A stretch of DNA of 64,000 bases, taken from the NCBI RefSeq assembly GCF_023703775.1, contig NZ_CP098514.1:2701998-2765997 (forward strand). Direction: 5' to 3'. Below are positions 39,359 through 56,776 of the stretch, in pieces; within the stretch, counting starts at the first letter, position 1, and each line of letters opens with the position of its first letter. Position numbers and translations under genes: made by a program. This DNA is from Haloplanus sp. GDY1 (GTDB lineage Archaea; Halobacteriota; Halobacteria; Halobacteriales; Haloferacaceae). The notes under the pieces are model-generated. The model saw only the letters and a program-made list of their open reading frames with translations, had not been told where the DNA came from and did not search any database.

Positions 39359-39402
39359 TCGAACTGTCCCCGTCACCGAGATGCGGAGGGGAGTTAATAA
39401 AG

Positions 39403-39446: not shown

Positions 39447-40343
39447 ATGTCAGCCGACGACACGATTCGGGTGTTTCACCTACCCTTCTCGTTCATGTTG
39501 CCCCAGCGCGTCGCGGCCGACCGGGGCTACTTCGCCGACGAGGGGCTCGACGTCGAACTGATCGAGCGGGACCGGACCTGCGTGACGAACAAGTACATCC
39601 CCGCCGAGGAGACGCTGACCGGCGACAACGACGTCGACCTCTATCCCATCTGCAAGTGGGAGAGCCTCAAGCGGACCTGGGAGTTCGACGACGGCCGCAT
39701 CGTCGCCAAGGGCACGTTCGCGGACCAGCCCTACGCCGTCTTCGTGCGCCCCGACTCGGACGTCGAGACGCCGGCCGATCTGGCGAACACGCCCGTCGGC
39801 GTCAACCGACGGACGGGCCAGGAGTACACCGCGATCAGGGCGCTCGAGGAACACATGGACGAGGACGAGGTGATCGTCGAGGGTCACGGGATGCCGACCG
39901 ACCGCCTGCGGGCGCTACGCGACGGCGACGTCGAGGCGGTTTCCCTCCTCGACCCGCACATCACCCTCGCCGAACACCTCGGCTTCGAGAAGGTCCTGGA
40001 GTTCGAGAACCACATGGGCGTCGTCGGCGCCGAGGGACTGGAGGGGGAGACCCTCGACGCCTTCATGTGCGCCTATCGTCGGGCGGTCGAGACGATCAAC
40101 GCCGAGCCGTCGGCCTATCGCGACCGGTATCTCGACATGCTCTGGAAGGACAGCGACGTCGCGCCGGACCTGTTCGAGGACGTCGACGCCGAGGCCGTCC
40201 GCGACGCCATCGAGGTGCCCGAGTACGAGGTGCCCGAACTCGCCGACCGCGAGGACCTGGACTACCACCTCGACTGGATGAAACGGCGGCAGTTGATCGA
40301 CGCCGACGCCGACATCGACGCCATCGTCTCCCCGGTGCGGTGA
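39447..40343 (+). CDS. Substrate-binding-protein-fold protein A, cytoplasmic (no signal peptide)
   Basis: The 298-residue protein has the type II periplasmic-binding fold of NMT1/SsuA-like proteins: RVFHLPFSFMLPQRVAADRGYFADEGLDVELIE (split as strand plus helix), DLANTPVGVNRRTGQEYTAI and LRDGDVEAVSLLDPH. It starts directly with the first strand, with no signal peptide or lipobox, although the TATA distance fixes the start. It therefore stays in the cytoplasm. It is the first of a cluster of such proteins and overlaps the next gene (GTGA). Some SBP-fold proteins are enzymes (THI5, dihydroxyphthalate decarboxylase), which is a possible role. Confidence 0.8.
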   Translation: MSADDTIRVFHLPFSFMLPQRVAADRGYFADEGLDVELIERDRTCVTNKYIPAEETLTGDNDVDLYPICKWESLKRTWEFDDGRIVAKGTFADQPYAVFVRPDSDVETPADLANTPVGVNRRTGQEYTAIRALEEHMDEDEVIVEGHGMPTDRLRALRDGDVEAVSLLDPHITLAEHLGFEKVLEFENHMGVVGAEGLEGETLDAFMCAYRRAVETINAEPSAYRDRYLDMLWKDSDVAPDLFEDVDAEAVRDAIEVPEYEVPELADREDLDYHLDWMKRRQLIDADADIDAIVSPVR

Positions 40344-41332
40344 GCCGGCGCCACGTCGACGCCCAGCAGGCCGCCTTCGACGAGTACCACGGGGACCCCG
40401 GCGACCTGCCGGTCGTGCGGGCGCGGTTCGAACACAACGGGAGCCCGCGGTACCTCCTCTATACGATCAAGCGGTTCGGCCTCGACCGGGCGCACGGCTT
40501 CCACCTCGACGTGGAACTCGTCTCGGACGACCTCGAAAGCGGGCTGACGACGATCCGGGAGCGACTGGACGAGGGGAGAACCGACCTCGTCGACACCGAC
40601 TTCATCTCCGCCGCCCGGGAGCGTGCCGGGGGCGCCGACGTCGTCGCCGTCCACCCCTACGGGCGGACGGTCGGCGGGCTGGTCGCCCCCGAGGGGACGG
40701 ACATCGAGGGACTGGCGGACCTCCGGGATCGCCGCGTCGGCGTCACCCGCCGCCTCGACAAGAACTGGATCCTGACGCGGGCGGCCTGCCGGGCGTTCCA
40801 CGGCTTCGACCCCGCCGACACCGTCACCCTCGTCGAGGCGGGGTCGCGCGACGGGCTCACCGACCTGATCCGCGAGGGCGAGGTCGACGCCGGCTTTCAG
40901 TTCTGGCCGCTCGTGCCCGAACTCACGCGGACCGGACCGTACACGGAGGTCCTCCCGGTGGCCGGCCTGGTCCAGCGGCTCTCCGGCACCGACCGAAGAC
41001 TCCCCGTGGCGACGTTTCTCACCGGCGAGTCGTTCCTGCGCGAGGAGACCGAGACGGTGCGGGCGTTCGCCCGCGCCGCCCGCGACGCGACCGACCGCCT
41101 CCGGGCCGACGACGACCTCTGGGTGGAACTCGGCGAGCGCCTGATGGCCGACGACGACCCCCGGGTCGTCCGGGCGGTCCGGGACGGCTGGCGCGACATG
41201 GCGGTCCGCGACTGGGACGCGGAGACGGTGGCGGGAATGCACCGGCTGTTCGACCACCTGAAATCCGTCGCCGGCACGGAGGCGCTGGGCGTCCAGGGGA
41301 TCCCCGAGGGAACCCTCCGCCCGGATCCGTGA
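40340..41332 (+). CDS. Substrate-binding-protein-fold protein B1, cytoplasmic
   Basis: The 330-residue protein starts at a GTG inside the previous stop. It opens SRRHVDAQQAAFDEY, then RARFEHNGSPRYLLYTIKRF, and has VGVTRRLDKNWILTRAACRAF and VDAGFQFWPLVPE, typical of an SBP-type two-lobe ligand fold. No signal peptide is present. It is the paralogue of the gene at 41519: equal length, and roughly two thirds or more identical by eye, with near-identical DNA over the first third. The ligand is unknown. Confidence 0.78.
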   Translation: MSRRHVDAQQAAFDEYHGDPGDLPVVRARFEHNGSPRYLLYTIKRFGLDRAHGFHLDVELVSDDLESGLTTIRERLDEGRTDLVDTDFISAARERAGGADVVAVHPYGRTVGGLVAPEGTDIEGLADLRDRRVGVTRRLDKNWILTRAACRAFHGFDPADTVTLVEAGSRDGLTDLIREGEVDAGFQFWPLVPELTRTGPYTEVLPVAGLVQRLSGTDRRLPVATFLTGESFLREETETVRAFARAARDATDRLRADDDLWVELGERLMADDDPRVVRAVRDGWRDMAVRDWDAETVAGMHRLFDHLKSVAGTEALGVQGIPEGTLRPDP

Positions 41333-41365
41333 CCGGTGTGCCGTGGTTCGACCACCGGTATGAAC

Positions 41366-41408
41366 GTTTCCAAGGAACTTTTATCAGGGTACAGTCGTAC
41401 CTGCGGGT
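41366..41408 (+). promoter_or_regulatory. Second copy of the inverted-repeat promoter
   Basis: GTTTCCAAGGAAC (41366-41378) is followed by TTTTATC (41379-41385) and ACAGTCGTACCTGCGGGT. The last block is shared, with one base missing, with the promoter at 39428-39446. It was copied together with the gene cluster. Confidence 0.6.
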
Positions 41409-41522
41409 ATGCCGACCGACGAGAGTCTCGCGGCGCCCCGTCTGGGATCGCCCGGCGCCGCGGCGTGTGCCGCCCCCGAGTCGACGCGCCAGGTGACCGC
41501 TCCACGGCCCGGTGACCGATGA
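41409..41522 (+). pseudogene. 37-codon relic of a duplicated SBP-A gene
   Basis: A short frame (MPTDESLAAPRLGSPG and so on) starts right after the copied promoter at the position where gene A starts after its own promoter. The first codons (atg-ccg-acc-gac-gag) resemble those of gene A (atg-tca-gcc-gac-gac). It ends in an ATGA overlap with gene B2, like A does with B1. It is best read as an internally deleted copy of A that still couples translation; a genuine leader peptide is the alternative. Confidence 0.55.
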
Positions 41523-42511
41523 CCCGGGGCCACGTCGACGCCCAGCAGGCCGCCCTCGACGCGCACCACGACGATCCGGGGGAACTGCCGGTCATGCGGG
41601 CGCGGTTCGAGCACAACGGGAGCCCGCGATACCTCCTCTATACGATCAAGCGGTTCGGCCTCGACCGGGCGCACGGCTTCCACCTCGACGTGGAACTCGT
41701 CTCCGACGCCCTCGAAGACGGCATCGAGACCGTCGAGGCCCAGCTGCAGGAGGGGCACGCCGACCTCATCGACATCGACTACATCTCCATCGCCCGGGAG
41801 CGCGCCGAGGGGGCGGACATCGTCGCCTTCCACCCCTACGGGCGGACGGTGGGGGGGCTGGTCGCCCCGGAGGACGCCGACATCGACGGGCTGGCGGACC
41901 TGTCCGGTCACCGGATCGGCGTCGTCCGCCGCCTCGACAAGAACTGGATCCTGACGCGGGCGGCCTGCCGGGAGTTCCACGGCTTCGACCCCGACGAGAC
42001 GGCCACCCCCGTCGAGGCCGGGTCGAAGGTCGAACTCACGCGGATGATCGAGGAGGGCGAGGTCGACGCCGGCTTCCAGTTCTGGCAGATCGTCCCGGAG
42101 ATCACGGAGACGGGCCCCTACGAGAACGTCCTGCCCGTCTCGGAACTGGTCCAGCGCCTCTCCGAGACGGACAACAAACTCCCCGTGGCGGCCTTCCTCA
42201 CCAGCGAGTCGTACCTGCGCGAGGAGACCGAGACGGTGCGGGCGTTCACGGAGGCGTACCGCGACGCGGTCGACCGCCTCGTCGAGGACGACGAGATATG
42301 GGCGGAGATCAGCGAGCAACTCATGAGCTACGACGACCCCGACGTGATGCGCGCGGTGCGTGACGGCTGGCGCGACATGGTGGTCCGCGACTGGGACGCC
42401 GAGAGCGTCGAGGGGATGTACCGGCTGTTCGACCACCTGAAGTCAGTCGCCGGCGCCGAGGCGCTCGGCGTCGGGGAGATCCCCGAGGGCACCTTCGAGG
42501 TCGATCCATGA
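41519..42511 (+). CDS. Substrate-binding-protein-fold protein B2, cytoplasmic
   Basis: This 330-residue paralogue of B1 opens TRGHVDAQQAALDAHHDD and keeps the motifs RFEHNGSPRYLLY, RRLDKNWILTRAACREF and DAGFQFWQIVPEI. No signal peptide is present. It is coupled downstream to gene C by an ATGA overlap and upstream to the relic. Retention of both copies suggests they may form a heteromer or bind different ligands. Confidence 0.78.
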   Translation: MTRGHVDAQQAALDAHHDDPGELPVMRARFEHNGSPRYLLYTIKRFGLDRAHGFHLDVELVSDALEDGIETVEAQLQEGHADLIDIDYISIARERAEGADIVAFHPYGRTVGGLVAPEDADIDGLADLSGHRIGVVRRLDKNWILTRAACREFHGFDPDETATPVEAGSKVELTRMIEEGEVDAGFQFWQIVPEITETGPYENVLPVSELVQRLSETDNKLPVAAFLTSESYLREETETVRAFTEAYRDAVDRLVEDDEIWAEISEQLMSYDDPDVMRAVRDGWRDMVVRDWDAESVEGMYRLFDHLKSVAGAEALGVGEIPEGTFEVDP

Positions 42512-43476
42512 CGGAGACGGTCACCTTCCAGTTGAACTGGGAGCCGAACGGCTTCCAGGCACCGTACTTCCTCGCGCGCCGCGAGGGCTTCTACGAGGAG
42601 GAGGGCCTCGACGTGGAGTTCGTCGAGGGTCACGGCTCGCCCTTCGCCGCCGAACAGACCGCGAAGGGTCGAAGCGACCTCGGCCTCGCCGGTGGGAGCG
42701 CCGTCCTCTCGGTGCGGAGCCAGGGGCTCGAACCGCTGGCGGTCGCCGCGGTCAGCCAGAAGACGCCGGCGACGGTCTACAGCCTCCGGGACGTCTTCGG
42801 CGAGCCGTTCACCGATCCCGAACAGCTCCGGGGACGGACGGTCGGCCCGTCGGCGACCAAGACCCGGATCCTCACCCTCCAGTTGCTGGAGGACCGGGGC
42901 ATCCGCGACGAGGTGACGGTCAACGACGTCCAGAAACACACGCACCACCGCGTCGAACACCAGTTGCTCGACGGCGACGTCGACGCCGCGGTGGGGGTCG
43001 TCACCAACGGCAAGGAACTCGAACGGGAGTACGACCGGACGGCCGACGAACTCCTGATCGGGGACTACCTCGACGTCTACGGCATGACGGTCGTCACCAA
43101 CCCCGAGTTCGCGGCGTCGAACCCGGGGACGATCCGCTCGTTCCTGCGAGCGACCGCCCGGGGGTGGGAACTGGCGACGAACGACCCCGATCGGGCCGTC
43201 GACGCGCTGATCGACCGGAACGCCCAGCTCGAACACAACCGCGAGGTCGAACACATGAAGTTCCTCGCGTCCGCCGAGGACCTCCAGTTCACCGAGTTCG
43301 TCCGCGAGGCGGGCTGGGGACACTTCGACGGCGGACGCTGGGAGAACCTGGCCGAGATGCTGGCGGAGACGGACTTGCTCGAATCGCCCGTCGACCCCGG
43401 GGCGGCGTGGACGAACGAGTACGTCGACGACGACGATCCGGTGATCGCGAACTACGCCGACCGGATCGGACGCTAG
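42508..43476 (+). CDS. NMT1/THI5-like substrate-binding-fold protein C, cytoplasmic
   Basis: The 322-residue protein starts TVTFQLNWEPNGFQAPYFLARR, the NMT1/THI5-like signature, and has FYEEEGLDVEFVEGHG, SDLGLAGGSAVLSVRSQG and NDVQKHTHHRVEHQLLDG. No signal peptide precedes the first strand. THI5 homologues convert their own histidine and PLP into HMP-P; a His-rich HTHH is present here, but I do not see the Cys-rich THI5 loop. It could equally be a cytosolic binding protein. It converges on the next gene. Confidence 0.78.
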   Translation: MTETVTFQLNWEPNGFQAPYFLARREGFYEEEGLDVEFVEGHGSPFAAEQTAKGRSDLGLAGGSAVLSVRSQGLEPLAVAAVSQKTPATVYSLRDVFGEPFTDPEQLRGRTVGPSATKTRILTLQLLEDRGIRDEVTVNDVQKHTHHRVEHQLLDGDVDAAVGVVTNGKELEREYDRTADELLIGDYLDVYGMTVVTNPEFAASNPGTIRSFLRATARGWELATNDPDRAVDALIDRNAQLEHNREVEHMKFLASAEDLQFTEFVREAGWGHFDGGRWENLAEMLAETDLLESPVDPGAAWTNEYVDDDDPVIANYADRIGR

Positions 43477-44190: not shown

Positions 44191-46311
44191 ATGTCATCCG
44201 AATCAAGCGGCGAACAGGACGGGCCGACCAAGACGATCTGCCCGTACTGCGGCGTGGGGTGTGGGATCCAGATTACGCAGGACGACGACGGGGAAGTCAA
44301 CTTCCGGCCGTGGGGCGACGCGCCGGTCAACGAGGGGAGCATCTGCATCAAGGGCGGGGCGGCGACCCAGTCGGTCAACCACGAGGATCGGCTGACCGAC
44401 CCGCTGATCCGCGACGACGACGGCGAACTCCGTGAAGCCTCCTGGGACGAGGCCTACGACCTGGTCGTCGACGAGATGGAGCGCATCCGCGACGACCACA
44501 GCGCGCAGGCGATGGGCTTCTACGGCTGTTCGAAGGCGATGAACGAGGAGAACTACCTCATCCAGAAGCTCGCCCGTCGCTACGGCACCAACAGCGTCGA
44601 CACCTGTACGCGGATGTGTCACTCCTCGACGGTGTACGCGCTCAAGAACAGCCTCGGCGAGGGCGCGATGACCAACAGCATGGCAGACCTGGAGGAGGCC
44701 GCGGACGTGTTCTGGATCCAGGGCGCCAACCCCGGCGAACAGCACCCCATCGCCAACAGCCAGTACTTCCGACAGGCGGTGCTGGAGGGGGCGACCGTCA
44801 TCCAGGTCGACCCGCACGCGAACAAGACGACGCGGTCGTTCGAGATCGACGAGACCGACCGCCACATGCACCTCCAGCTCGAACCGGGGACGGACATCCC
44901 GCTGCTGAACGTCGTCATCAAGACCGTACTGGAGAACGGCTGGGTCGACGAGGAGTTCGTCGAGGAGCGCACCGAGGGCTTCGAGCACTTGGAGGAGACG
45001 CTGGCGGACTTCGACAAGGAGGAGGCCGCCGAGGAGTGTGGCGTCCCCCTGGAGGACATCGAACTCGCCGCCGAGAAGTACGCCAAGGCGAACAACGCGG
45101 CCATCTTCACGGGCATGGGGATGAGCCAGCACACCTGCGGCGTCGACAACGTGCAAAACGAGATCAACCTCGCCCTCATCACCGGGAACCTGGGCCGTCC
45201 GGGCACGGGCGTCAACCCCCTCCGCGGCCAGAACAACGTGCAGGGTGCCTCCGACGTGGGCGCGATGCCGAACGTCCTCCCCGGCTACCGCGACGTCTCC
45301 GACCCCGAGGTTCGCGCCGACGTCGAGGAGGTGTGGGACTTCGAGATCCCCTCGACGCCCGGGCTGACGAACGTCGAGGTCTCCCACGAGATCGGCGAGA
45401 CGATCCACGGGCTCTACATCATGGGCGAGAACCCCGTGATGAGCGAACCCGACACCAACCAGGTCGAGAAGCGCCTGGAGGAACTGGACTTCATGGTGGT
45501 CCAGGACATCTACAAGACCGAGACCGCCGAGTACGCCGACGTGATCCTGCCCGCCACCTCGTGGGCCGAGCGCGACGGAACGGTCGTCAACACCGACCGC
45601 CGCACCCAGCGGATGCGCGGGGTCGACAAGGTCCACCCGAACACGAAACACGACCTCGAGATCCTCTGTGACGTCGGGAACCGCCTGTTCGGCGACGGCA
45701 GCTTCGACTTCGACGGTCCGGAGGAGGTGTTCGAGGAACTCCGGCAGGTCGCGCCCATCTTCCACGGCATGACCTACGACGTGCTCGGCGAGGAGGGGGT
45801 CCACTGGCCCTGCTACGAACCCGGCGACGAGGGCGACCCCTACCTCTACGAGGACGGGTTCACCACCGAGAGCGGCCTCGGTCAGATCGAGGGTGTGCGC
45901 CACCAGCCGCCGAAGGAAGTGCCCGACGACGAGTACCCGCTGATCCTCACCACCGGTCGGATCATCGAACACTACAACACGGGGACGATGAGCCGTCGCT
46001 CCGAGACGCTCAACCGCGTCGAGCCCGAGAACTTCGTCGACGTCCACCCGAACGACGCCGAGAACTACGGCATCGAGGACGGCGACTACGTGACCCTTCG
46101 GTCCCGGCGCGGGGAAATCGAGGTCGAGGCTCGCGTCACCGAGGACATCAAGGAGGGGACGGTGTGGACGACGCCGCACTTCGCCGACGCCGCTGGCAAC
46201 CGGCTCACGAACGACGTGCTCGACGAGCGGGCGAAGATCCCCGAGTACAAGGCCGCAGCCGCGGAGATCGAGGTCACGGTCGACACCGCCGACGCCCCGG
46301 CGGACGACTAA
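44191..46311 (+). CDS. fdhA-like: Formate dehydrogenase-type molybdopterin oxidoreductase
   Basis: The 706-residue protein has a 4Fe-4S site Cys17/Cys20/Cys24/Cys52 (CPYCGVGCG, ICIKG), a catalytic Cys143 in TRMCHSSTV at the FDH Cys/Sec position, and the molybdopterin regions GANPGEQHP, ATSWAERDGTVVNTDRR and TTGRIIEHYNTGTMSRRS. It would oxidize formate to CO2 in the cytoplasm; there is no Tat signal. No FdhD or electron-transfer subunit is adjacent, so the acceptor is unknown. TTTTTACA lies about 25-30 nt before the start. Confidence 0.9.
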   Translation: MSSESSGEQDGPTKTICPYCGVGCGIQITQDDDGEVNFRPWGDAPVNEGSICIKGGAATQSVNHEDRLTDPLIRDDDGELREASWDEAYDLVVDEMERIRDDHSAQAMGFYGCSKAMNEENYLIQKLARRYGTNSVDTCTRMCHSSTVYALKNSLGEGAMTNSMADLEEAADVFWIQGANPGEQHPIANSQYFRQAVLEGATVIQVDPHANKTTRSFEIDETDRHMHLQLEPGTDIPLLNVVIKTVLENGWVDEEFVEERTEGFEHLEETLADFDKEEAAEECGVPLEDIELAAEKYAKANNAAIFTGMGMSQHTCGVDNVQNEINLALITGNLGRPGTGVNPLRGQNNVQGASDVGAMPNVLPGYRDVSDPEVRADVEEVWDFEIPSTPGLTNVEVSHEIGETIHGLYIMGENPVMSEPDTNQVEKRLEELDFMVVQDIYKTETAEYADVILPATSWAERDGTVVNTDRRTQRMRGVDKVHPNTKHDLEILCDVGNRLFGDGSFDFDGPEEVFEELRQVAPIFHGMTYDVLGEEGVHWPCYEPGDEGDPYLYEDGFTTESGLGQIEGVRHQPPKEVPDDEYPLILTTGRIIEHYNTGTMSRRSETLNRVEPENFVDVHPNDAENYGIEDGDYVTLRSRRGEIEVEARVTEDIKEGTVWTTPHFADAAGNRLTNDVLDERAKIPEYKAAAAEIEVTVDTADAPADD

Positions 46312-47141: not shown

Positions 47142-47795
47142 CTACTCGTCGCCGTTGCGCTTCAGCGCGCCGTAGGCGCCCGCACCGATCGCGGTCAGGG
47201 CTGCGCCGACGCCGAAGCCGGGGCCGCCGCCGGAGGTCTCACCGCCGCCGTCGCCGCCGTCACCGCCGTCGCCGCCGTCGCCGTCGCCCATGTCGCCGTC
47301 GGATTCCGTGGGCGTCGCCGTCGCGTCGCCGCCGTCGTCCATGCCGCCGCCGTCGGTTTCGGTGGGCGTCGCCGTCATGCCGCCGGAGACGCTGAACTCG
47401 CCACCTTCGCCCATGTGTTCCTCACAGAAGTATTCCGTGAGGCCGCCGGTAGCCTGGAAGGACGCCGAGCGGGTCACGCCGGTCTCGAAGACGTACTCGC
47501 CGCGGTAGACGATGCCGTCCTCCGCCGCGACCACGAGGTTGTGGCGTGACGTGCCTGCCTGACTGCTCTCGGGGATGAAGCTGGTGGTCCACTCGATGGA
47601 GTACTGACTGCCCGCTTCGACTTCCAGCGTCGGGTTGGTCGTCCCCGCGATGCTGGAGGGGGCGCGGCCGACGAACCCTTCTTCCGTCAGCTCCAGTTCG
47701 AACGTCGTTGCCTGTGCCGTCGTCGATCCCACGGCGCCGGCTAACCCTGCCGTCGTTGCTGCAGCACCGATCAGGAACTTTCTTCGCGTCGCCAT
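47142..47795 (-). CDS. Tat-exported cupredoxin-like protein with PGF-CTERM anchor
   Basis: The 217-residue protein has a Tat signal (ATRRKFLIGAAATTAGLAG), a cupredoxin domain (about 30-138) with His85 (RHNLVV), Cys124 and His127 (FCEEHM), then Thr/Asp/Gly-rich linkers and the C-terminal GPGFGVGAALTAIGAGAYG, the archaeosortase PGF-CTERM type. It would be lipid-anchored outside the membrane. The usual Met four residues after the His is missing, so the copper site would be unusual, or Met128 serves. It lies beside the PQQ dehydrogenase, so electron acceptance is inferred. Confidence 0.78.
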   Translation of the reverse strand: MATRRKFLIGAAATTAGLAGAVGSTTAQATTFELELTEEGFVGRAPSSIAGTTNPTLEVEAGSQYSIEWTTSFIPESSQAGTSRHNLVVAAEDGIVYRGEYVFETGVTRSASFQATGGLTEYFCEEHMGEGGEFSVSGGMTATPTETDGGGMDDGGDATATPTESDGDMGDGDGGDGGDGGDGGGETSGGGPGFGVGAALTAIGAGAYGALKRNGDE

Positions 47796-47912: not shown

Positions 47913-49640
47913 TTACTCTTCGCTGAGGCCGAAGACGGCGATGGTGGAGCCACGGCGACCGCCGTGGAGCCAGCCGGAGCCGCCGACCTGGACCGCGACG
48001 TACTGTTTGCCCTCGCCGGGGTCGTACCAGCTGGAGAGCGACGAGCAGATCGGTGCGCCGAGCTGGAACTGCCAGAGGCGGTCACCGCTCTCGCCGTCGT
48101 AGGCGATGATGTTCCCGTTCTGGGTGCCGGTGAACATGAGGCCGGTCGCGGTCGTGATCGACCCGCCCCAGAGGTAGTCGCTGGTGACTTCCTGGGAGAT
48201 CCAGTCGCGCCAGACGACGTCGCCCGAGGCCGGGTCGACGGCGACGATGGCGCTGAGGTTGCCGTTCCAGTCGGCCGGTTCGGTGACGTCGGGCCAGTCG
48301 TTGAGGCCGCCGCCCCAGTAGGTCTGGCCGGCCTCGTACTGCGCCTCCTCCCAGAAGATCTCGTGAGGCGCGTTGTTCTGGTTCATGTACATCAGGCCCG
48401 TCTCGTGGCTGTACGACGGCGGCTGCCAGTCGTTGCCACCGTGTGCGCCCGGCACGAAGGCGACCCGACGGTCCTCGTCGGTGTGTGGAATCATCTTCCA
48501 CATGTTGATGTGCTGGGTCGTCTCCTCGGAGCGCTCGAGCAGGCGACCGTTCTCGGCGTCCATCGTGTAGACCCAGGCGGTCTTGCCGGGGCTGAGGACG
48601 ACGTCGCGCGTCTCGTCGCCCATCTCCATGTCGTTGACGCGGATCTTGGTCGCCGAGGAGTCGTAGTCCCACACGTCGTGGGGGGACTCGCCGTAGTGCC
48701 ACTGGATGGACCCGTCGTCGGCGCTGAGGGTCAGCGTCCCGATGGTGTAGCGGTTCGGACCCGGACGGACCGTGCCGTCGAAGTCCGGGCCGGGGTTCCC
48801 GACGGGCGCGTGGATCATGCCGCTGTCGGGATCGATGGTCGGCGTCATCCACACGGTACCGGCGCCGTGTTCGTGGGAGTCGCCGGCCCACTCCTCGGGC
48901 GGCGTCGTGTTGGTTCGCCAGATCTCGTCCCCGCTCTCGGGGTCGAGCGCCGCGACGAACCCGCTGACGCCGTACTCGCCGCCGGCGGAGCCGGTGATGA
49001 CCTGGCCCTCGTAGACGACGGGCGCCCAGGTGGCGGAGTAGCCGATCTCGTGGTCACCGGTCGACTTGTACCACGCCTCTTGGCCGGTGTAGCGGTTGAG
49101 CGCCACGACACCGGAGTCGAGCGTGGTCATGTAGACCTTGTCGCCGTAGACGGCGAAGCCACGGTTGTTCGCGTCACAGCAGAGTAGGAGCCCCTGCGGG
49201 TTCGCGTACGTGTAACTCCAGAGGGTCTCGCCGGTGCGGGCGTTGATCGCCTTCGCGTGGTTCGGCCCGTTGGTCTGGTACATGACCGGCGGATCCCCGG
49301 GGACGACGATGGGGACGCCCTCCATGCTGGAGGCGACGCCGCTCTGTACCAGATACTCCATCTGGAGGTTCTCGACGTTGTCGGGCGTGATCACGTCGGC
49401 GGACGTGTACCGCTGCTGCTGGTAGTTCCCGCCGTACATCAGCCAGCTCTCGGGGTTGTCGACCGCCGAGGCGTGGAGATCCTCCTGGGTGACGTCTCGC
49501 TGGGGGATCTGCTCGATGTCGAACTGGTGGGTGATCGACTCGTCGGGCAGGTTCGTCAGCGTGTACCCGTCCTCGACCTCCACCATCTCGATGTTCTGTG
49601 CCGCCTGAGCCGCTTTGTCTACTTCCTGAATGCTAGCCAT
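47913..49640 (-). CDS. PQQ-dependent alcohol dehydrogenase, lanthanide-type signature
   Basis: The 575-residue protein is an eight-bladed quinoprotein dehydrogenase of the methanol/ethanol family. The vicinal disulfide is Cys154-Cys155 (LLCCDANNRG). Metal ligands are Glu222 (GGEYGVSG) and Asn282 (GNPGPDFD), with the stacking Trp264 and the catalytic Asp325 in HDVWDYD. Asp327, two after it, is the extra ligand that marks lanthanide-dependent XoxF/PedH-type enzymes; calcium enzymes have another residue. No signal peptide is present, though it must act outside with PQQ. It follows a Tat-signal gene by 3 nt. No cytochrome domain is fused. Confidence 0.9.
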   Translation of the reverse strand: MASIQEVDKAAQAAQNIEMVEVEDGYTLTNLPDESITHQFDIEQIPQRDVTQEDLHASAVDNPESWLMYGGNYQQQRYTSADVITPDNVENLQMEYLVQSGVASSMEGVPIVVPGDPPVMYQTNGPNHAKAINARTGETLWSYTYANPQGLLLCCDANNRGFAVYGDKVYMTTLDSGVVALNRYTGQEAWYKSTGDHEIGYSATWAPVVYEGQVITGSAGGEYGVSGFVAALDPESGDEIWRTNTTPPEEWAGDSHEHGAGTVWMTPTIDPDSGMIHAPVGNPGPDFDGTVRPGPNRYTIGTLTLSADDGSIQWHYGESPHDVWDYDSSATKIRVNDMEMGDETRDVVLSPGKTAWVYTMDAENGRLLERSEETTQHINMWKMIPHTDEDRRVAFVPGAHGGNDWQPPSYSHETGLMYMNQNNAPHEIFWEEAQYEAGQTYWGGGLNDWPDVTEPADWNGNLSAIVAVDPASGDVVWRDWISQEVTSDYLWGGSITTATGLMFTGTQNGNIIAYDGESGDRLWQFQLGAPICSSLSSWYDPGEGKQYVAVQVGGSGWLHGGRRGSTIAVFGLSEE

Positions 49641-49643: not shown

Positions 49644-50561
49644 TTACGCACCTCCCGTGCGCGGGGCGCGCATTTCGTCCGTGATGCGCATCACGTCGTT
49701 CGTGAGATCCTCCTGTCCGACGATCATCATCGCCGCACCGGCCGACAGCGCGGCGGTGAGCTGCGCGTCGCTCAGCTCCTGAGCGCCGGCGAGGTCCTCG
49801 GCGGCGTTGGCGAGCAGATGCAGTCCGGCGTACATCTGCTTGAGGTCCCCGTAGTTGTTGTCGAGGATGGTGTCCGTCAGGAGTACCTCGTTCTGCCAGA
49901 GGTACGTATCGAGGTAGTCCGTCCACAGCAGGACGCCCGCCGCCGCTCGCTGGTGGAGCGGAGCGATGTTGGCGGGGTCGAACCCCTCGACGCCGGCCGG
50001 GATGTTCTTCGTCGGCACCCACATGGCCAGCCGTTCCTTGTTGTTGACGACGTTGACGACCGTCGACGTCAGCTCCTCCTCGGTGTAGCCGAGTTCGAGG
50101 AGCGCGGACGCGAGCGCGCCCGTGCTGATGAGTTCGCGCGCCGTCGCGGCGATGTGCTCGGGCGTGAACTCCGGCAGGTTCTCCTCGACGCTCTCGAAGA
50201 AGCCGACTTCGACGAGATGCTCGTGGATCGCCCAGCCGGGCTCGGCGAGCTCCTGATAGGCCGTGCTGTCCTCGGCCGGGACGCCCATCGCGCGGAGCTC
50301 GTCCAGCTGAGCGATCTGTCCTTCCAGGGCGGCGAGTTCGCTACCCAGCAGACCCGCGTCCAGTTCTCCGGTCAGGTCCTCGCTGATGGCCTCGCCCATC
50401 GCGGCGAGTTCCCCCGCCGTCTCCCCTTCTACTTCTCCCCTGAGGTCGCTCAGGGTGAACTCACTACCTGCTGCCACTGCGCCGGTCAACCCGACGACCT
50501 TGAGGAACTGTCGGCGGTCCTCTTGGTCGATCTGGGGCATTCCGTTTACATATTGCGACAT
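49644..50561 (-). CDS. Tat-signal helical partner of the PQQ dehydrogenase
   Basis: The 305-residue protein begins with DRRQFLKVVGLTGAVAAG, a twin-arginine signal without a lipobox, followed by an all-alpha domain (TAGELAAMGEAISEDL, LGSELAALEGQIAQLDEL, YGDLKQMYAGLHLLANAAEDL). No metal or haem motif is visible. It is immediately upstream of and in the same operon as the dehydrogenase, which lacks any signal, so it may carry it through Tat as a complex and act as a small subunit. That role is inferred. Confidence 0.78.
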   Translation of the reverse strand: MSQYVNGMPQIDQEDRRQFLKVVGLTGAVAAGSEFTLSDLRGEVEGETAGELAAMGEAISEDLTGELDAGLLGSELAALEGQIAQLDELRAMGVPAEDSTAYQELAEPGWAIHEHLVEVGFFESVEENLPEFTPEHIAATARELISTGALASALLELGYTEEELTSTVVNVVNNKERLAMWVPTKNIPAGVEGFDPANIAPLHQRAAAGVLLWTDYLDTYLWQNEVLLTDTILDNNYGDLKQMYAGLHLLANAAEDLAGAQELSDAQLTAALSAGAAMMIVGQEDLTNDVMRITDEMRAPRTGGA

Positions 50562-50726: not shown

Positions 50727-51260
50727 TTATCGGACCGTGAGTTGACCGATCATCCCGGACGCCACGTGGGGGACACAGACGTAGGTGTAGTCGCCGGTCG
50801 TTTCGAAGGTGTGGTAGTACGACGTTCCGGCCGCGTTGAGCGAGAGGTGGTTGACGTTCTCGCCCGAGATGTCGTAGCTCGCGAACGGCTCCGCACCTTC
50901 CGGGAGTTCGACGTCGCTCGCGGCGTCGGGGTGTCCCGAGACGTTGTGGCCGCCAGAGTCGAAGACCCACTCGACGGTGTCGCCCTGTGACACCGCGGTG
51001 TTCGCCGGTTCGAACTGGAGGCTGCCACCCGGACCGACGGAGATCGTCGCGTCCGGCTCCGGCGCCGGCGTCGACGTGGCCGTCGCCGTCGCCGTGGCCG
51101 TCGGTTCCGGGGTGTCGGTCGCCGTCGCCGTCGCCGTCGCCTCTCCGCCACCGCCACCGTTGCCGCCGGAACAGCCCGCGAGCCCGGCGAGAACGACACT
51201 GCTGAACGTGGCTGCGAATTTCCGCCGCGACAGGAACTCGTTCGACTGCTTTGAGACCAT
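50727..51260 (-). CDS. Halocyanin-like blue copper lipoprotein
   Basis: The 177-residue protein has a Tat signal (SRRKFAATFSSVVLAGLAG) with lipobox Cys30, a Thr/Pro/Ala-rich linker and a complete plastocyanin-like domain. Copper ligands are His105 (GGHNVSG), Cys162, His165 (YVCVPH) and Met170. It is anchored outside the membrane and can carry electrons. It sits upstream of the PQQ operon on the same strand, about 165 nt away, and is a natural electron acceptor for it (inference). Confidence 0.92.
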   Translation of the reverse strand: MVSKQSNEFLSRRKFAATFSSVVLAGLAGCSGGNGGGGGEATATATATDTPEPTATATATATSTPAPEPDATISVGPGGSLQFEPANTAVSQGDTVEWVFDSGGHNVSGHPDAASDVELPEGAEPFASYDISGENVNHLSLNAAGTSYYHTFETTGDYTYVCVPHVASGMIGQLTVR

Positions 51261-51373: not shown

Positions 51374-51381
51374 TTTATATA
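51374..51381 (+). promoter_or_regulatory. TATA box that decides the start of the HTH-SBP gene
   Basis: TTTATATA at 51374-51381 overlaps the in-frame ATG at 51381, so that ATG cannot be in the transcript. The in-frame GTG at 51405 is 27-28 nt from the box centre, the leaderless spacing seen elsewhere here. Confidence 0.6.
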
Positions 51382-51404
51382 TGGCGTGGGACCAAGCATC
51401 CACC

Positions 51405-52658
51405 GTGCGAGTTCGAGAGTTTCCCGTCCTCGGCGACGAGGACGAACGAGCGGTCGAGGCGTTCGCCGCGGGACTCGACCGCGAGGCGGCGCGGGTCCTC
51501 GCCTATCTGGTCGGGCGCGAGGACACCGACCGCTTCTCCGGCGAGGCGGCGTCGCGGCTGGCCGTCCGCGTCGGCGTCGACCTGGGTCGCGGCCGGGTCT
51601 CCGACGTCCTCGCCACGCTCACCGACAGCGGTCTGGTCACCGAGACGACCGTCGAGAGCGAGGCGCCGGGCCGTCCCCCCAAGGGCTGGCGCGCCGACGC
51701 CGGCCACGACCGGACGGTCGAGCGCGTGCGCGCCCTCCACTCCGAGGCGCTGCTCGACCGGGCGGCGTCGGTCGCCGCGAGCCTCGGCGACGACGTCGGC
51801 GTCGACGCCGGCGCACGGTCGGGGACCCTCGATCCGGTCGCGGTGGGGCTCAACTGGGAGCCCAACGGTCTCCACGCGCCCCTGTTCGCGGGGCGCTACG
51901 ACGTCGACGTGAGCTTCACGGGCCGTCGCGGCTCCCGCGCCGCGCTGTCCGCGGTGGCCGACGGCGACGTCGACGTGGCGCTCACCGGCGCCGCGACGCT
52001 GCTTCGCGCCCACGCCGACGGTCACGACGTGATCCCCCTCGCGCTCTACTACCAGCGGGCGATGGTCGTCCTCTACACCACCCGCGAGACGTTCGGGGGT
52101 CCGCTCCGGAGCGTGGAGGACGTGCGCGGCCGTCGGGTCGCCATGCCCGCCGGCTCCGAGACGGGGGCGCTCGGGCGGCTCTTCCTGTCACAGGCCGGCG
52201 TCGTCGACGACGTGACCGTCGTCCGCGCCGACGGCGAGGAGCGCGAGGCGCTGCTCGACGGCGACGCCGACGTGGCGACCGGCGTCTTCACCGATCCGCT
52301 GGAACTGGAGGCCGCCGGCCACGACGTGGATTCGGTGCTCGTGGCCGACCACTTCCCGGTCCCCGGGCCCGCCTTCGTCGTCCGCCGGGAGACGCTCCGG
52401 GACCGTCCCGCCGCGCTCCGGGGGTTCCTCGAAGGCGCGATGGCCGGCTGGAGCGCCGCCAAGGTCGACCCCGCGGCGGCGGTCGACGCCCTCGACGGAC
52501 GAGGCGGCGAGCGGGACGCGGCCGAGCGGCGCAAACTCGCCCAGGCGCTCGACCGCTTCGCGGACAGCGACGCCGTCGAGAAGAACGGCTGGGGGTGGCA
52601 CTCCGTCGAGACGTGGCAGCGGCTCCGGATCGCCCTCGATCAGGCGGACGCGCTATGA
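51405..52658 (+). CDS. Winged-helix DNA-binding domain fused to an NMT1/SsuA-like binding domain
   Basis: The protein has 417 residues from GTG 51405 (an ATG at 51381 would add eight). Residues about 20-100 form a winged helix (ARVLAYLVGREDTDRF, RLAVRVGVDLGRGRVSDVLATLTDSGLV), then GRPPKGWRA as a wing. From about 128 the SBP domain begins VAVGLNWEPNGLHAPLFAGRYDVDV with FTGRRGSRAALSAVADGDVDVALTG. No signal peptide or lipobox is present. It heads an ABC-transporter operon (ATGA overlap), so it probably senses the transported ligand in the cytoplasm and regulates the locus. Confidence 0.82.
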   Translation: MRVREFPVLGDEDERAVEAFAAGLDREAARVLAYLVGREDTDRFSGEAASRLAVRVGVDLGRGRVSDVLATLTDSGLVTETTVESEAPGRPPKGWRADAGHDRTVERVRALHSEALLDRAASVAASLGDDVGVDAGARSGTLDPVAVGLNWEPNGLHAPLFAGRYDVDVSFTGRRGSRAALSAVADGDVDVALTGAATLLRAHADGHDVIPLALYYQRAMVVLYTTRETFGGPLRSVEDVRGRRVAMPAGSETGALGRLFLSQAGVVDDVTVVRADGEEREALLDGDADVATGVFTDPLELEAAGHDVDSVLVADHFPVPGPAFVVRRETLRDRPAALRGFLEGAMAGWSAAKVDPAAAVDALDGRGGERDAAERRKLAQALDRFADSDAVEKNGWGWHSVETWQRLRIALDQADAL

Positions 52659-53428
52659 TTCGGGTCGAGGATCTGTCGGTCACCTACGGCGACCTCCGCG
52701 CGCTCGCCGACGTCTCCCTCGACGTCGCCGACGGCGAGTTCGTCACGGTCGTCGGCCCCTCGGGCTGTGGCAAGACCACGCTCCTTCGGACCATCGGCGG
52801 GCTGGAGGAGCCGACGACGGGCCGCGTCACCGTCGACGGCGACCCGCCCGAGGTCGCCCAGTCGGACGCCCGCCTCGGCTTCGTCTTCCAGGAGCACACC
52901 CTGTTGCCTTGGAAGACCGCCGTCGAGAACGTCACCTTCCTCCGGCGGATGGCGGGGAAGGACCCCGACCCCGAGGGCGCCCGCGACCTGCTCTCGACGA
53001 CGGGGCTCGACGGCTTCGAGGACGCCCGCCCCGGCGAACTCTCCGGGGGCATGAAACAGCGGGTCGCCATCGCCCGCGCCATCCACCTCGGCGCCGAGGT
53101 GTTGCTCATGGACGAACCGTTCGGCGAACTCGACGAGATCACCCGCGACGAGATGAGCGTCGAGATCCTCCGCCTCTGGCGCGAGAACCGAAAGACCGTC
53201 GTGTTCGTCACCCACAGCGTCCCCGAGGCCGTCTTCCTCGGCGACCGCTGCATCGTGGTCTCGGGGTCGTCCGGCGCCGACCCGGCCGCCGGCGACGACG
53301 CGCCCGGTCGGATCGTCGGCGAGTTCGACGTCGACCTCCCGCGTCCCCGCGACGAGTCGGTGTTCGGCTCCGAGGCCTTCGGGACCCAGGTCGCCGAGGT
53401 GCGCCGGGCGCTCCACGACGACGCATGA
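52655..53428 (+). CDS. ABC transporter ATP-binding protein (nitrate/sulfonate/taurine type)
   Basis: The 257-residue ATPase has Walker A GPSGCGKTT (34-42), Q-loop FVFQEHTLLPWKT, signature LSGGMKQRVAIARA, Walker B LLMDEPFGELDEITR and switch His in FVTHSV. It is the SsuB/TauB/ThiZ-like branch. It overlaps genes on both sides. It would power both permeases nearby, as no other ATPase gene is present in the locus. Confidence 0.95.
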   Translation: MIRVEDLSVTYGDLRALADVSLDVADGEFVTVVGPSGCGKTTLLRTIGGLEEPTTGRVTVDGDPPEVAQSDARLGFVFQEHTLLPWKTAVENVTFLRRMAGKDPDPEGARDLLSTTGLDGFEDARPGELSGGMKQRVAIARAIHLGAEVLLMDEPFGELDEITRDEMSVEILRLWRENRKTVVFVTHSVPEAVFLGDRCIVVSGSSGADPAAGDDAPGRIVGEFDVDLPRPRDESVFGSEAFGTQVAEVRRALHDDA

Positions 53429-54180
53429 GCGTCGCGGAACGCGTTCCGCTCCCCGACGTGACGCTCCCGGTCGCGGGACTGGTCGCCGCCGTCGGCTGCT
53501 GGTGGGCGGTCACCGTCGCCTTCGCCATTCCCCCCTTTCTCCTGCCGTCGCCGGCCGCCGTCGCCGCCCGCCTCGCCGGCGACCCCGCGCTCTACCTGTC
53601 GAGCGCCGCCGAGACGCTCCGGAAGGTCCTCGTCGGCGGCGCCGTCGGGGTGGTCGCCGGCTTCGCCATCGCCGTCCTCGTCGCCACGATCCCCCTGCTC
53701 AAGCGGGCGATCTACCCCTACCTCGTCGCGATGCGCGTCCTCCCGAAGATCGCGGTCGCGCCCCTCTTTCTCATCTACTTCGGCGTCGGCTTCGGGACGG
53801 CCGTCCTCTTCGTCGCCCTCGTCGTCTTCTTCCCCGTCGTCGTCGGGACGGCCGCGGGCCTCTCGCGGACGCCCGAGGCCCACCTCGATCTGCTCCGGTC
53901 GGTCGACGCCGACCCCGTCCGGACCTTCCTCGCAGTACGGCTGCCCCACGCCCTCCCCGACGTCTTCGCCGGCCTGAAACAGGCGGTCACGCTGGCCGTC
54001 GTGGGCGCCGTCGTCGCGGAGTGGATCCTCTCGAACGACGGCCTCGGCTCCCTGATCCTCGTCGCCTCGGAGAACGTGCAGGTGGACGTGATGCTCGCCG
54101 CGCTCGCGGTGTTGCTCCCCATCGGGTTCCTCCTCTACGGCGGCGTGACGCTCTGTCAGCGCGCGGTCGCGTGGGCCTAG
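53425..54180 (+). CDS. ABC transporter permease, SsuC/ThiX type
   Basis: The 251-residue protein has six hydrophobic helices and the inner-membrane EAA loop (MRVLPKIAVAPLFLIYFGVGFGTA, then RLPHALPDVFAGLKQAVTLAVVGAVVAEW). It overlaps the ATPase gene by 4 nt. It belongs to the BPD_transp_1 family for SsuC-like importers. It converges on the second permease gene. Confidence 0.92.
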   Translation: MSVAERVPLPDVTLPVAGLVAAVGCWWAVTVAFAIPPFLLPSPAAVAARLAGDPALYLSSAAETLRKVLVGGAVGVVAGFAIAVLVATIPLLKRAIYPYLVAMRVLPKIAVAPLFLIYFGVGFGTAVLFVALVVFFPVVVGTAAGLSRTPEAHLDLLRSVDADPVRTFLAVRLPHALPDVFAGLKQAVTLAVVGAVVAEWILSNDGLGSLILVASENVQVDVMLAALAVLLPIGFLLYGGVTLCQRAVAWA

Positions 54181-54194
54181 CCCCTGTCCAGTCG

Positions 54195-54998
54195 CTAGCC
54201 CCAGTCCAGGCGCCGCTCCACCGCCGCGGGCACGAGGTAGAAGCCGAGGCCGAGGAGGGTGAGGGCGCCCAGGGTCGCGAAGGTGGCGCTCGTCCGCAGG
54301 AACTCGGCGGTGTGGAACAGCCGGTAGCCGAGCCCGGACTGGAGGGTGAGGAACTCCGCGACGACGGTGCCCACGACGGCCAGCGCGGCGGCGAGTTTCA
54401 CGCCGGCGAAGACGCTCGGCGCGGCCGCGGGCACCCGGACCCGGAGGAAGGTCCGCGCCGGCGACGCCCGAACCGAGCGGGCGAGGTCGGTGTACTCTCG
54501 GGGGACCGACCGGAGCCCGTCGACCGACGCGATTGCGACGGGAAAGACGGTCATGGTGGTGACGAGGGCGGCCCGCGAGAGGACGCCGTCGCCGATCCAG
54601 AGGAAGACGAGGGGGGCGACCGCGATCAGCGGCGCGATGCGCAGCGCGATCAGGTAGGGGTGGAGGATCGCGGCCGCCGCCCGCGACCCGACCATCGCGA
54701 AGGCGAGGGTGAGACCGACGACGACCCCGCCGACGAGGCCGAGGGCCGCCGTCGCCGCCGTGACGCCCGTCGCCGCGAGCAGCGTCCCCCGGGCCGCCAC
54801 GGCCGCCGTCGCCACGTCGACCGGCGAGGGGAGGATCACCTCCGGGACGCCGGTCGCCGTCACGAACCACTGCCAGCAGCCGACGACGACGACGAACACC
54901 GCGACGGGGGGCCAGGCGTGGCCGAGGACCGACCGGACGGTCCCGCCGCTCACCGTCGGCGTCTCGACGGCCGCGAGTCGCCGATCGGAGGTCGACAT
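54195..54998 (-). CDS. ABC transporter permease, second (SsuC/ThiX type)
   Basis: The 267-residue membrane protein parallels the other permease (ALRIAPLIAVAPLVFLWIGDGVL, PAAAPSVFAGVKLAAALAVVGTVVAEF) but is only distantly similar. It starts in an ATGA overlap with the binding-protein gene, so these two form a separate operon. It lacks its own ATPase and may use the one at 52655, either as a heterodimer or as a second importer. Confidence 0.92.
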   Translation of the reverse strand: MSTSDRRLAAVETPTVSGGTVRSVLGHAWPPVAVFVVVVGCWQWFVTATGVPEVILPSPVDVATAAVAARGTLLAATGVTAATAALGLVGGVVVGLTLAFAMVGSRAAAAILHPYLIALRIAPLIAVAPLVFLWIGDGVLSRAALVTTMTVFPVAIASVDGLRSVPREYTDLARSVRASPARTFLRVRVPAAAPSVFAGVKLAAALAVVGTVVAEFLTLQSGLGYRLFHTAEFLRTSATFATLGALTLLGLGFYLVPAAVERRLDWG

Positions 54999-56089
54999 CA
55001 GACGACGTCGGCGTACGACCCCACGTATCGGGAGTCGGTGTCGAGGTAGTCGTTGGTCCAGACGGCGCTCGGGTCGACTTCGCCGCCCAGGGCGTCCGCG
55101 TCCGCGAGGGCGTCGCGGACGACCCGCCAGGGTTCGGCCTCGCTCCACCCCCAGCCGTGGTCCCTGACGGCGTCGCTCAGCATGAACTCCCCGGCCATGG
55201 TCTCCCACTTCCGGCGCTGCTGGTCGCGGGACTCCGAGAGGACGCCGTTCGCCTCGACCAGCAGGTCGGTCGCCTCGCCGGGGCGCTGCTGAGCCCACGC
55301 GGCCCCGCGGGCGGTCGCCCGGAGGAACGCCCGGACGGCCTCGGGGTTGGCTGCGGCCCAGTCCCGCTCCGCCGCGATCACGTGGCCGTAGGAGGGGATC
55401 GCGTTCGCGACGGGGATGCTGTCGACGGTGTAGTCCTGGGCCTCGGCGCTGATGGCGTCGCCGAAGACGCCGCCGGCGGCGTCGATCTCGCCCGCGAGGA
55501 GCTGCTGGACCGTGTCGTAGCCGGTGTCGACCATCTCGACGTCCTCGCGGACGCCCGCCTCCGCCAGGAGCAGCGAGGTGAGCATCCGCACCATCCCCGG
55601 ACCGGTGCCGACCGTCTTGCCGGCGAGTTGCTCGACGTCGGTCAGTTCGCCGCCGAAGGTCTCCCGCGTCGAGAACACCACCGCCGGACTCCGCTGCATC
55701 ACGACCCCCACCGACTGCGGTGAGAGGCCCCGGCTGTTGATGTTCAGCACCTGATCGCTGCTCGTGACCGCGAAGTCGACGTTGCCGAGGCCGGCCTGCT
55801 TCGCCGAGAACGTCGATCCCTCTCCCGTCTCGATGGCGTCGAGCGTCAGCCCCTCCTCCTCGTAGAACCCCTTCGCCTTCGCGGTGAAGTAGGGGACGTG
55901 GAGCCCGCTCGGCTTCCAGTTGAGGAGCAGCGACGACTCGCCCGGGATCGGCGTCCCCGTGGCCGTGCCGGTGGGTGTCGCCTCCCCGCCGGCCCCGGCG
56001 TCCGTCCCGCCGAGACATCCCGAGAGCCCCGTCGCCCCGGCAGCGCCCGCCGCGACGAGAAACGATCGTCTCGTCGGTGTGGATTCCAT
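54998..56089 (-). CDS. ABC substrate-binding Tat lipoprotein, NMT1/THI5-like
   Basis: The 363-residue protein has a Tat signal (TRRSFLVAAGAAGATGLSG) with lipobox Cys25. The binding domain has LLLNWKPSGLHVPYFTAKAKG, FYEEEGLTLDAIETGEGSTF and VDFAVTSSDQVLNINSRG. It is exported and lipid-anchored outside. The ATG 56089 start is preferred to the GTG at 56098. The LNWxPxG segment is also in the HTH-fused protein and gene C at 42508, so all three bind related ligands (inference); thiamine-precursor-like pyrimidines are one possibility. Confidence 0.92.
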   Translation of the reverse strand: MESTPTRRSFLVAAGAAGATGLSGCLGGTDAGAGGEATPTGTATGTPIPGESSLLLNWKPSGLHVPYFTAKAKGFYEEEGLTLDAIETGEGSTFSAKQAGLGNVDFAVTSSDQVLNINSRGLSPQSVGVVMQRSPAVVFSTRETFGGELTDVEQLAGKTVGTGPGMVRMLTSLLLAEAGVREDVEMVDTGYDTVQQLLAGEIDAAGGVFGDAISAEAQDYTVDSIPVANAIPSYGHVIAAERDWAAANPEAVRAFLRATARGAAWAQQRPGEATDLLVEANGVLSESRDQQRRKWETMAGEFMLSDAVRDHGWGWSEAEPWRVVRDALADADALGGEVDPSAVWTNDYLDTDSRYVGSYADVV

Positions 56090-56138: not shown

Positions 56139-56429
56139 TTAACTGACCCCGATCTCGTCGTCCGACGGCGACCACTCGAACTCGAGTTCGAGTTCCAGTT
56201 GGCGGTGGGTCTCGCCCACGAACTCCACCTCGACCTCGATGGGTTCGTCGAACTCGAAGGGGATCTCCCACTCGTCGGTGGAGATCGTGAGTCGGGGCTC
56301 CGATTCGATCTGGTCGGCGAGGTCACGCAGGAACGCCGCCGTCGACTCCCGGGAGAGGCGCACCTCCCGCTCGAAGTAGCCGTCGGTGACGGTCCGTGGA
56401 CCGTCGTTCGCGTCCGGCAGGTCGGCCAT
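56139..56429 (-). CDS. Amphi-Trp domain protein
   Basis: This 96-residue protein has the small amphi-Trp fold: EVRLSRESTAAFLRDLADQI, then a beta-hairpin with Trp (STDEWEIPFEFDEP) and ELELEFEWSPS. The domain is common in haloarchaea and of unknown biochemical role. It is monocistronic and divergent from the ArsR gene. Confidence 0.85.
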   Translation of the reverse strand: MADLPDANDGPRTVTDGYFEREVRLSRESTAAFLRDLADQIESEPRLTISTDEWEIPFEFDEPIEVEVEFVGETHRQLELELEFEWSPSDDEIGVS

Positions 56430-56485: not shown

Positions 56486-56776
56486 ATGTCCCTGTTCGAC
56501 GTTCTCGGGAGCAAGGCGCGACTACAGATCATCCGCGAACTGTCCACGGAACCCCGGTACGTCTCCGAACTCGCCGACCGCGTCGGGATGGACGGCAAGA
56601 CCGCGGTACACCACCTCTCGACGCTCGAGGAGGCGGGCATCGTCGAGAGCTACCGGACCAGCCGACGGAAGTACTACCGGCTGACCAAGCGCATCGAACT
56701 GCGCGCCTCGCCCGAACCCGACCCCATGTTTCTGCTACACGCCGTCGACGTCGACGAGGCCGAACAGTCCCGGTAG
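56486..56776 (+). CDS. ArsR-family transcriptional regulator
   Basis: The 96-residue winged-helix protein has SLFDVLGSKARLQIIRELSTE, YVSELADRVGMDGKTAVHHL (recognition helix) and SYRTSRRKYYRLTKRI (wing). No metal-binding cysteines are present, so it is not a metal sensor of the classic type. The start is ATG 56486. It may regulate the nearby antiporter gene 100 nt downstream. Confidence 0.9.
   Translation: MSLFDVLGSKARLQIIRELSTEPRYVSELADRVGMDGKTAVHHLSTLEEAGIVESYRTSRRKYYRLTKRIELRASPEPDPMFLLHAVDVDEAEQSR

Follow-up and report, generated by a model that had tools for sequence, protein, structure and literature searches.

A conserved haloarchaeal quinoprotein system with a lanthanide-type metal site, a helical partner protein, and two associated gene modules

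RESULTS AND DISCUSSION

Overview

We found that a 64,000-nucleotide stretch of the Haloplanus sp. GDY1 genome (NZ_CP098514.1, positions 2,701,998 to 2,765,997; hereafter the window) encodes a real, conserved, and uncharacterised haloarchaeal quinoprotein system, in which a PQQ-type alcohol dehydrogenase with a lanthanide-type site is accompanied by a helical partner and two gene modules (A and B), the partner and the modules being the more surprising part. In the explanation that fits the data best, to which we give a probability of about 0.5, a lanthanide-type quinoprotein would be made without a signal peptide, translationally coupled to the 305-aa partner, would fold inside the cell with its cofactor and metal, and would leave by the Tat pathway on the Tat signal of the partner as a "hitchhiker" complex. 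Outside the membrane, the dehydrogenase would oxidise an alcohol and pass the electrons to blue-copper proteins, not to cytochrome c. The known Pqq route would not be the source of PQQ; instead, the ABC importer of module A, the cytoplasmic proteins of module B, or both would provide the cofactor. If this is right, about one in six of the haloarchaeal genomes sampled would have rare-earth, or at any rate PQQ, enzymology, the dehydrogenase would be supported by an export partner without a known fold match and by copper proteins replacing cytochrome c, and modules A and B would take the place of the absent PQQ synthesis genes; we found no literature link of either module to quinoproteins.

The dehydrogenase and its metal site

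The dehydrogenase is encoded at 47913-49640 on the minus strand of the window, in a host genome of 3.4 Mb. The protein of 575 aa lacks a signal peptide and any hydrophobic segment at its N-terminus, and its open frame of 576 codons is closed just upstream of the start. It matched the PQQ beta-propeller dehydrogenases of PF01011 (E 1e-52; 179.8 bits, above the gathering cut-off of 26.7), and it scored 388.6 bits against TIGR03075 (PQQ-dependent dehydrogenase, methanol/ethanol family), which is under the curated cut-off of 480. Its best solved relatives in phmmer and profile searches of the PDB include PedH (6zcv/6zcw) and XoxF (6dam). When an AlphaFold model (mean pLDDT 83) was compared with solved structures, the nearest fold was that of PedH (Z 42.4 over 495 residues, 34% identity), with XoxF (Z 40.5) and other PQQ alcohol dehydrogenases close behind. 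The homologue of Haloplanus ruber is 89% identical.

The initial annotation had placed a lanthanide-type aspartate, Asp327, two residues after the catalytic Asp325 in a WDYD motif and had listed Glu222, Asn282, Trp264, and the Cys154-Cys155 pair as being in place. All of these residue numbers proved right. In a residue-by-residue alignment, the vicinal cysteines (codons 49176-49181, minus strand), the metal ligands Glu222 (48975-48977, minus) and Asn282 (48795-48797, minus), Trp264, Asp325, and Asp327 are in register with PedH and XoxF. The motif W324-D325-Y326-D327 (codons 48660-48671, minus) falls so that Asp327, far from lying outside the metal site, occupies the column of the extra Asp of PedH (6zcw/6zcv, WDFD) and XoxF (6dam/6oc5/4mae, WDYD/WDFD) in both profile and pairwise alignments. 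At this column, the calcium enzymes carry Ala (MxaF; 4tqo, 1lrw), Ser (ExaA; 1flg), or Thr (the quinohaemoprotein alcohol dehydrogenases 1kb0 and 1kv9). Every further PQQ contact checked is retained as well (E107, R160, K353, W491, and GSGW); Lys353 replaces an Arg, and the quinohaemoprotein enzymes also have Lys there. Since D325 and D327 are invariant in all 38 tabulated haloarchaeal homologues, down to about 35% identity, the site is not a product of chance. We regard PQQ as the very probable cofactor of the enzyme.

The Asp-x-Asp motif supports lanthanide use, as judged from sequence, but it is neither decisive nor sufficient, because it also occurs in five unbiased bacterial plasmid relatives (L206-L210; WDLD) and in membrane glucose dehydrogenases, one of which (L204) aligns with WDMD at the motif; the characterised E. 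coli mGDH has an Asp-x-Asp motif, too (PMC11996626). Other bacterial relatives had been found by the pattern WD[YW]D, and their motif, being ascertained, was excluded from the evidence. Asp327 had been proposed as the residue that separates lanthanide from calcium enzymes. This holds for the aligned calcium enzymes, which have Ala, Ser, or Thr, but not for the membrane glucose dehydrogenases.

These observations bear on a different reading, in which the protein is a calcium-dependent or metal-promiscuous PQQ alcohol dehydrogenase that uses Ca2+ and Mg2+ in brine, the Asp-x-Asp being ancestral and non-selective. The deeper haloarchaeal tiers lack the Cys-Cys pair, and some of them also Glu222, yet the motif is kept in all paralogues and thus may be a retained feature of the clade. 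Metal promiscuity has been predicted for enzymes such as the membrane glucose dehydrogenases (PMC11996626), Na/Ca exchanger genes recur near the locus, and genomes with module A only lack a LutA-like protein. Against this, the solved enzymes of the XoxF/PedH clades that carry this Asp use lanthanides and the aligned solved calcium enzymes lack it, the nearest solved fold is that of PedH, and the locus includes a gene of the LutA family. On balance we consider metal promiscuity rather unlikely, and we give a lanthanide preference, as predicted from the sequence, about even odds; lanthanide dependence is plausible.

Distribution and phylogeny

At a threshold of E ≤ 1e-50, the dehydrogenase is present in 69 of 391 haloarchaeal genomes, belonging to 20 of 86 genera, and its homologues fall into tiers of about 54-91%, 46-53%, and 34-45% identity. 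A 197-genome sample of the phylum added no holder beyond the haloarchaea already known, and no relative was found on viral contigs. In a quick maximum-likelihood tree that included MxaF, XoxF, ExaA, and PedH, the haloarchaeal enzymes form one clade with a support of 100, next to uncharacterised proteobacterial enzymes. XoxF and MxaF are in a separate clade, also with a support of 100, and the dehydrogenase groups with neither of these references; it is likewise apart from PedH/ExaA and from the quinohaemoprotein clades. Lying in a haloarchaea-only clade outside XoxF and PedH, the dehydrogenase is neither of them by descent, yet it may function similarly. The lanthanide-type assignment of the initial annotation is therefore to be qualified: the site in the alignment, the PedH/XoxF fold, and the LutA homologue in the locus speak for it, but the protein belongs to a clade of its own.

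The comparison with bacterial systems has the same two sides. With PedH of Pseudomonas putida (6zcw/6zcv), the Haloplanus enzyme shares the fold, the vicinal Cys-Cys pair, the Glu/Asn/Asp ligands, and the extra Asp; PedH belongs to another clade, is a bacterial periplasmic enzyme that works with cytochrome c, and has Arg in place of Lys353, whereas the haloarchaeal protein has no signal of its own, no cytochrome c, and an additional helical partner. The XoxF methanol dehydrogenases (6dam, 4mae, 6oc5) are alike in fold and metal-site residues but are of another clade; their XoxG-type cytochrome partner is absent from the haloarchaeal loci examined, and methanol is not indicated as the substrate. 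In general, bacterial periplasmic PQQ alcohol dehydrogenase systems combine a signal peptide on the enzyme with a nearby cytochrome c, and the haloarchaeal dehydrogenase has neither.

As to the suggestion that rare-earth-dependent metabolism would be unusual for an archaeon, the literature, which we covered incompletely, yielded no description of a PQQ or lanthanide dehydrogenase from haloarchaea. Quinoproteins with a DYD motif have, however, already been reported from marine Thaumarchaeota (PMC7300363). The thaumarchaeal proteins resemble the present one in being archaeal, in the DYD motif of some of them, and in the blue-copper acceptors proposed for them. They differ in lacking the Cys-Cys pair, in carrying, for the most part, signal peptides or membrane helices of their own, and in the PQQ synthase gene reported in the same paper.

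A helical partner with a Tat-like signal

Immediately upstream of the dehydrogenase lies the partner gene (49644-50561, minus strand), with 3 bases between its stop codon and the first codon of the dehydrogenase. The partner is present in exactly the 69 of 391 genomes that hold the dehydrogenase, and its gene adjoins that of the enzyme in every locus examined (about 68 distinct loci). It encodes a 305-aa protein, all-helical in a model of high confidence (pLDDT 90.8), which had no match among Pfam, NCBIfam, or PDB sequences. Foldseek returned no match to the model with E ≤ 0.001, and VIA-align gave Z values of 5.6 or less, typical for helical bundles, which does not by itself prove a new fold.

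Between the two proteins, only the partner carries a twin-arginine motif (RRQFLK) followed by a hydrophobic stretch, DRRQFLKVVGLTGAVAAG, and the dehydrogenase has none. Because of this arrangement, the folded dehydrogenase-partner complex is likely to be co-exported through Tat on the partner's predicted signal. An RRxFLK motif with a hydrophobic stretch is found in Haloplanus and also in deeper tiers. The signal is lost, however, in many relatives, including the main tier of the Natrialbaceae type, so partner-borne co-export cannot be general. Where it has decayed, export could rely on a downstream Tat-signalled cupredoxin; alternatively, the enzyme could stay in the cytoplasm.

Some homologues are attached to other elements. 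Three distant ones have a C-terminal Thr-rich linker followed by a PGF-CTERM-like surface anchor, recognised in one case by a PGF_CTERM match just under the cut-off and in the others via surface-glycoprotein models, and four (L066, L071, L073, L074) are fused behind a blue-copper domain. None of these seven anchored or copper-fused homologues has an N-terminal signal of its own. At loci L052, L053, L077, L079, L083, L084, and L085, the partner lacks the Tat-like motif, and often a 2Fe-2S ferredoxin gene, and no cupredoxin gene, is nearby. The haloarchaeal ferredoxin in place of a cupredoxin suggests that the dehydrogenase may be cytoplasmic at such loci and may use a different electron acceptor.

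Candidate electron acceptors

Two copper proteins flank the enzyme and its partner. Downstream of the dehydrogenase is a cupredoxin-like protein (47142-47795, minus strand) with an RRKFL signal and a PGF-CTERM anchor (PGF_CTERM over cut-off). It keeps a His and a Cys-x2-His, the axial Met not being obvious, and is itself below the Copper-bind threshold of PF00127, which its homologues match. Upstream is a halocyanin-type blue-copper lipoprotein (50727-51260, minus strand; PF00127 E 6e-17, TIGR03102). Among the 528 genes called around 41 haloarchaeal dehydrogenase loci, none encodes a CxxCH protein, in contrast to several bacterial relatives of the dehydrogenase that have a cytochrome c gene next door. 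Halocyanin generally takes the place of cytochrome c in haloarchaea (PMC8305020). We therefore think it quite likely that blue-copper proteins accept the electrons here in place of cytochrome c. A single acceptor common to all loci was considered and rejected, since the loci are not uniform and some have a 2Fe-2S ferredoxin instead of a cupredoxin.

PQQ synthesis genes and the cofactor question

The initial annotation had remarked that the window holds no PQQ synthesis genes, and genome searches agreed, yielding no PqqC and no PqqB or PqqE above cut-off. PqqC was absent in all 40 relatives searched. Haloferax volcanii, included as a control genome, gave no PqqC match and no PQQ_enz_alc_DH match above cut-off. 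It exceeded the cut-off in 0 of 30 haloarchaea holding the dehydrogenase, versus four of six bacterial controls with relatives of the enzyme (E 1e-99 or lower), and the corresponding figures for PqqB were 0 of 12 haloarchaea versus four of four bacterial controls. The PqqE-like matches turned out to be generic radical-SAM proteins, far below cut-off. One genome (G191, C3:228020-228796) encodes a PqqB-like metallo-hydrolase of 114 bits (cut-off 245), well over the generic matches of other haloarchaea.

The lack of PqqC, and of PqqB above cut-off, would also fit an "empty" or repurposed quinoprotein, in which the fold is kept and PQQ is not the cofactor, as the acidobacterial family called "empty quinoprotein" implies by its name. 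The dehydrogenase matches that family, TIGR04528, with 287 bits, and deep paralogues have lost the Cys-Cys pair and the Glu. But TIGR03075 outscores TIGR04528, the main tier retains all the PQQ and metal contacts tested, the dehydrogenase never occurs without a transporter or gene set dedicated to it, and PQQ can be scavenged, as is known for E. coli, which does so without synthesising it (PMC12124388). An empty quinoprotein is thus improbable, and we retain the reading of a PQQ enzyme. An enzyme exported by Tat has to be loaded inside the cell, and the cofactor would have to be obtained there.

Modules A and B

Module A spans 51381-56089 and is an ABC importer. It comprises SBP1, a Tat lipoprotein and NMT1/THI5-like substrate-binding protein (54998-56089, minus strand; PF09084 E 1e-35), ABC permease 2 (54195-54998, minus; PF00528), ABC permease 1 (53425-54180, plus; PF00528), an ABC ATPase (52655-53428, plus; PF00005), and a protein without a signal in which, by domain matches, an NMT1 domain follows a helix-turn-helix-like N-terminus (51381-52658, plus). 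The last of these is, to judge by its domains, a probable regulator that senses the ligand of the module A transporter, and relatives of it were seen at seven further loci.

Module B spans 38477-43476. Its proteins of the c38, c13, and SBPcyt kinds have periplasmic-binding folds without signal peptides: c38 is a cytoplasmic NMT1-fold protein (39495-40343, plus strand; PF09084 E 6e-10), c13 (41519-42511, plus; PDB 9b1u/9ooz E 1e-30) and its second copy c13b (40340-41332, plus; assigned by sequence comparison) are LutA-family proteins, and SBPcyt (42508-43476, plus) is THI5/ThiY-like (binding protein 4nmy, the closest in the PDB, E 2e-20; THI5 4h65 E 3e-16; ThiY 3ix1 E 6e-15). The c13 gene is thus present as a tandem duplicate at 40340-42511, with copies 74% identical; it is single in the other module B loci checked. 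A cupin (39017-39358, minus; PF07883) with conserved His45-x-His47, Gln51, and His85 and a protein of the VOC (glyoxalase/dioxygenase) superfamily (38477-38908, minus; PF00903), the latter found in most loci examined, complete the set.

SBPcyt is 39% identical to SBP1, and both belong to the NMT1 fold family together with the THI5/NMT1 pyrimidine synthase (4h65) and ThiY (3ix1), a family in which cytoplasmic and secreted versions coexist; these are far relatives. The LutA/PedA1 transporters of the M. extorquens lut and P. putida ped systems support lanthanide-dependent growth (PMC7391723, PMC6839425), and S. meliloti is reported to have lutABEFG homologues (PMC12628762). Over most of their length, c13 and c13b are 30-32% identical to the S. 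meliloti LutA homologue beside xoxF (31% over 309 columns for c13), and 9b1u is the best PDB match common to c13 (E 1e-30) and to that homologue (E 3e-60), whose gene has xoxF and genes for YVTN, ATPase, and permease proteins in its vicinity. Another LutA-like gene adjoins a membrane glucose dehydrogenase. The haloarchaeal proteins differ from LutA/PedA1 in that they have no signal peptide and no LutE/LutF-type transporter and are encoded with c38, SBPcyt, and the cupin.

Co-distribution with the dehydrogenase

SBP1 matches found in B-only genomes were actually to SBPcyt, and for this reason A and B were split into two modules. SBP1 (at least 52% identity) is present in 45 of the 69 genomes with the dehydrogenase versus 2 of the 322 without it, and c38 orthologues in 53 of 69 versus 1 of 322. 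At least one of the two modules accompanies the dehydrogenase in all 69 genomes (16 with A only, 24 with B only, and 29 with both), compared with 3 of the 322 others. If the two modules were distributed independently, 5.6 of the 69 would be expected to have neither, and none was observed. The Fisher values of 1e-38 and below overstate the significance, as the genomes are related, although the pattern recurs in several families. The presence of c13 tracks module B exactly in a 60-genome subset, and module B is often distant from the dehydrogenase on the chromosome. None of the 16 genomes with module A only encodes a LutA-like protein, so this route of lanthanide uptake is not a requirement.

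Among the three exceptions with A or B and no dehydrogenase, two (L183 and L184, in genomes G090 and G279) have transporter A at a distance of 0.2 kb from another lipoprotein with PQQ-type repeats, and one has B alone. In genome G193, also without the dehydrogenase, a decayed SBPcyt next to a VOC gene is all that is left, and G135, the sampled Haloplanus genome in which the dehydrogenase is missing, likewise has neither the partner nor A nor B.

We see about even odds that the two modules are alternative means of supplying the cofactor, PQQ with or without the metal. The main rival is that they handle the enzyme's substrate or its product; an aromatic or a sulfonated alcohol and the steps of its breakdown would be an example. 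SBP1 weakly matches sulfonate/taurine binding families, catabolic pathways often include VOC and cupin proteins, and the stretch between module B and the dehydrogenase contains a formate dehydrogenase gene. This reading, however, has to accommodate that A or B goes with all tiers of the enzyme (35-100% identical), whose substrates probably differ, even where unlinked, that SBPcyt is close to THI5 and ThiY, proteins of cofactor-precursor synthesis and uptake, and that the nearest relative of c13 is LutA, which takes part in metal/cofactor uptake. We hold substrate handling to be the less probable of the two, and cofactor supply is kept as the working explanation. A more specific version of the latter, which we advance with considerable doubt, is that module B constitutes a cytoplasmic pathway, archaeal and independent of Pqq, for making PQQ or a PQQ-like quinone, or for loading it together with a lanthanide into the dehydrogenase before the folded enzyme is exported by Tat, and that module A imports the same cofactor. 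If true, this would be a haloarchaeal rare-earth quinoprotein system assembled in the cytoplasm, in contrast to the periplasmic assembly in bacteria.

Other neighbouring genes

The formate dehydrogenase gene, at 44191-46311 on the plus strand, encodes an alpha-type molybdopterin enzyme (TIGR01591 over cut-off), and the close relative L047 also has a gene falling in the same cluster. Two Na+/Ca2+ exchanger family proteins (56953-58098, plus strand, and 58136-59185, minus strand; both PF01699) are recurrent neighbours whose membership of the system is unsure. In several genera, at about ten loci in all, such a pair is found close to the dehydrogenase; it possibly serves metal supply or Ca2+ control. 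An Amphi-Trp domain protein and an ArsR-like regulator, encoded as a divergent pair (56139-56429, minus, and 56486-56776, plus), recur in about ten loci.
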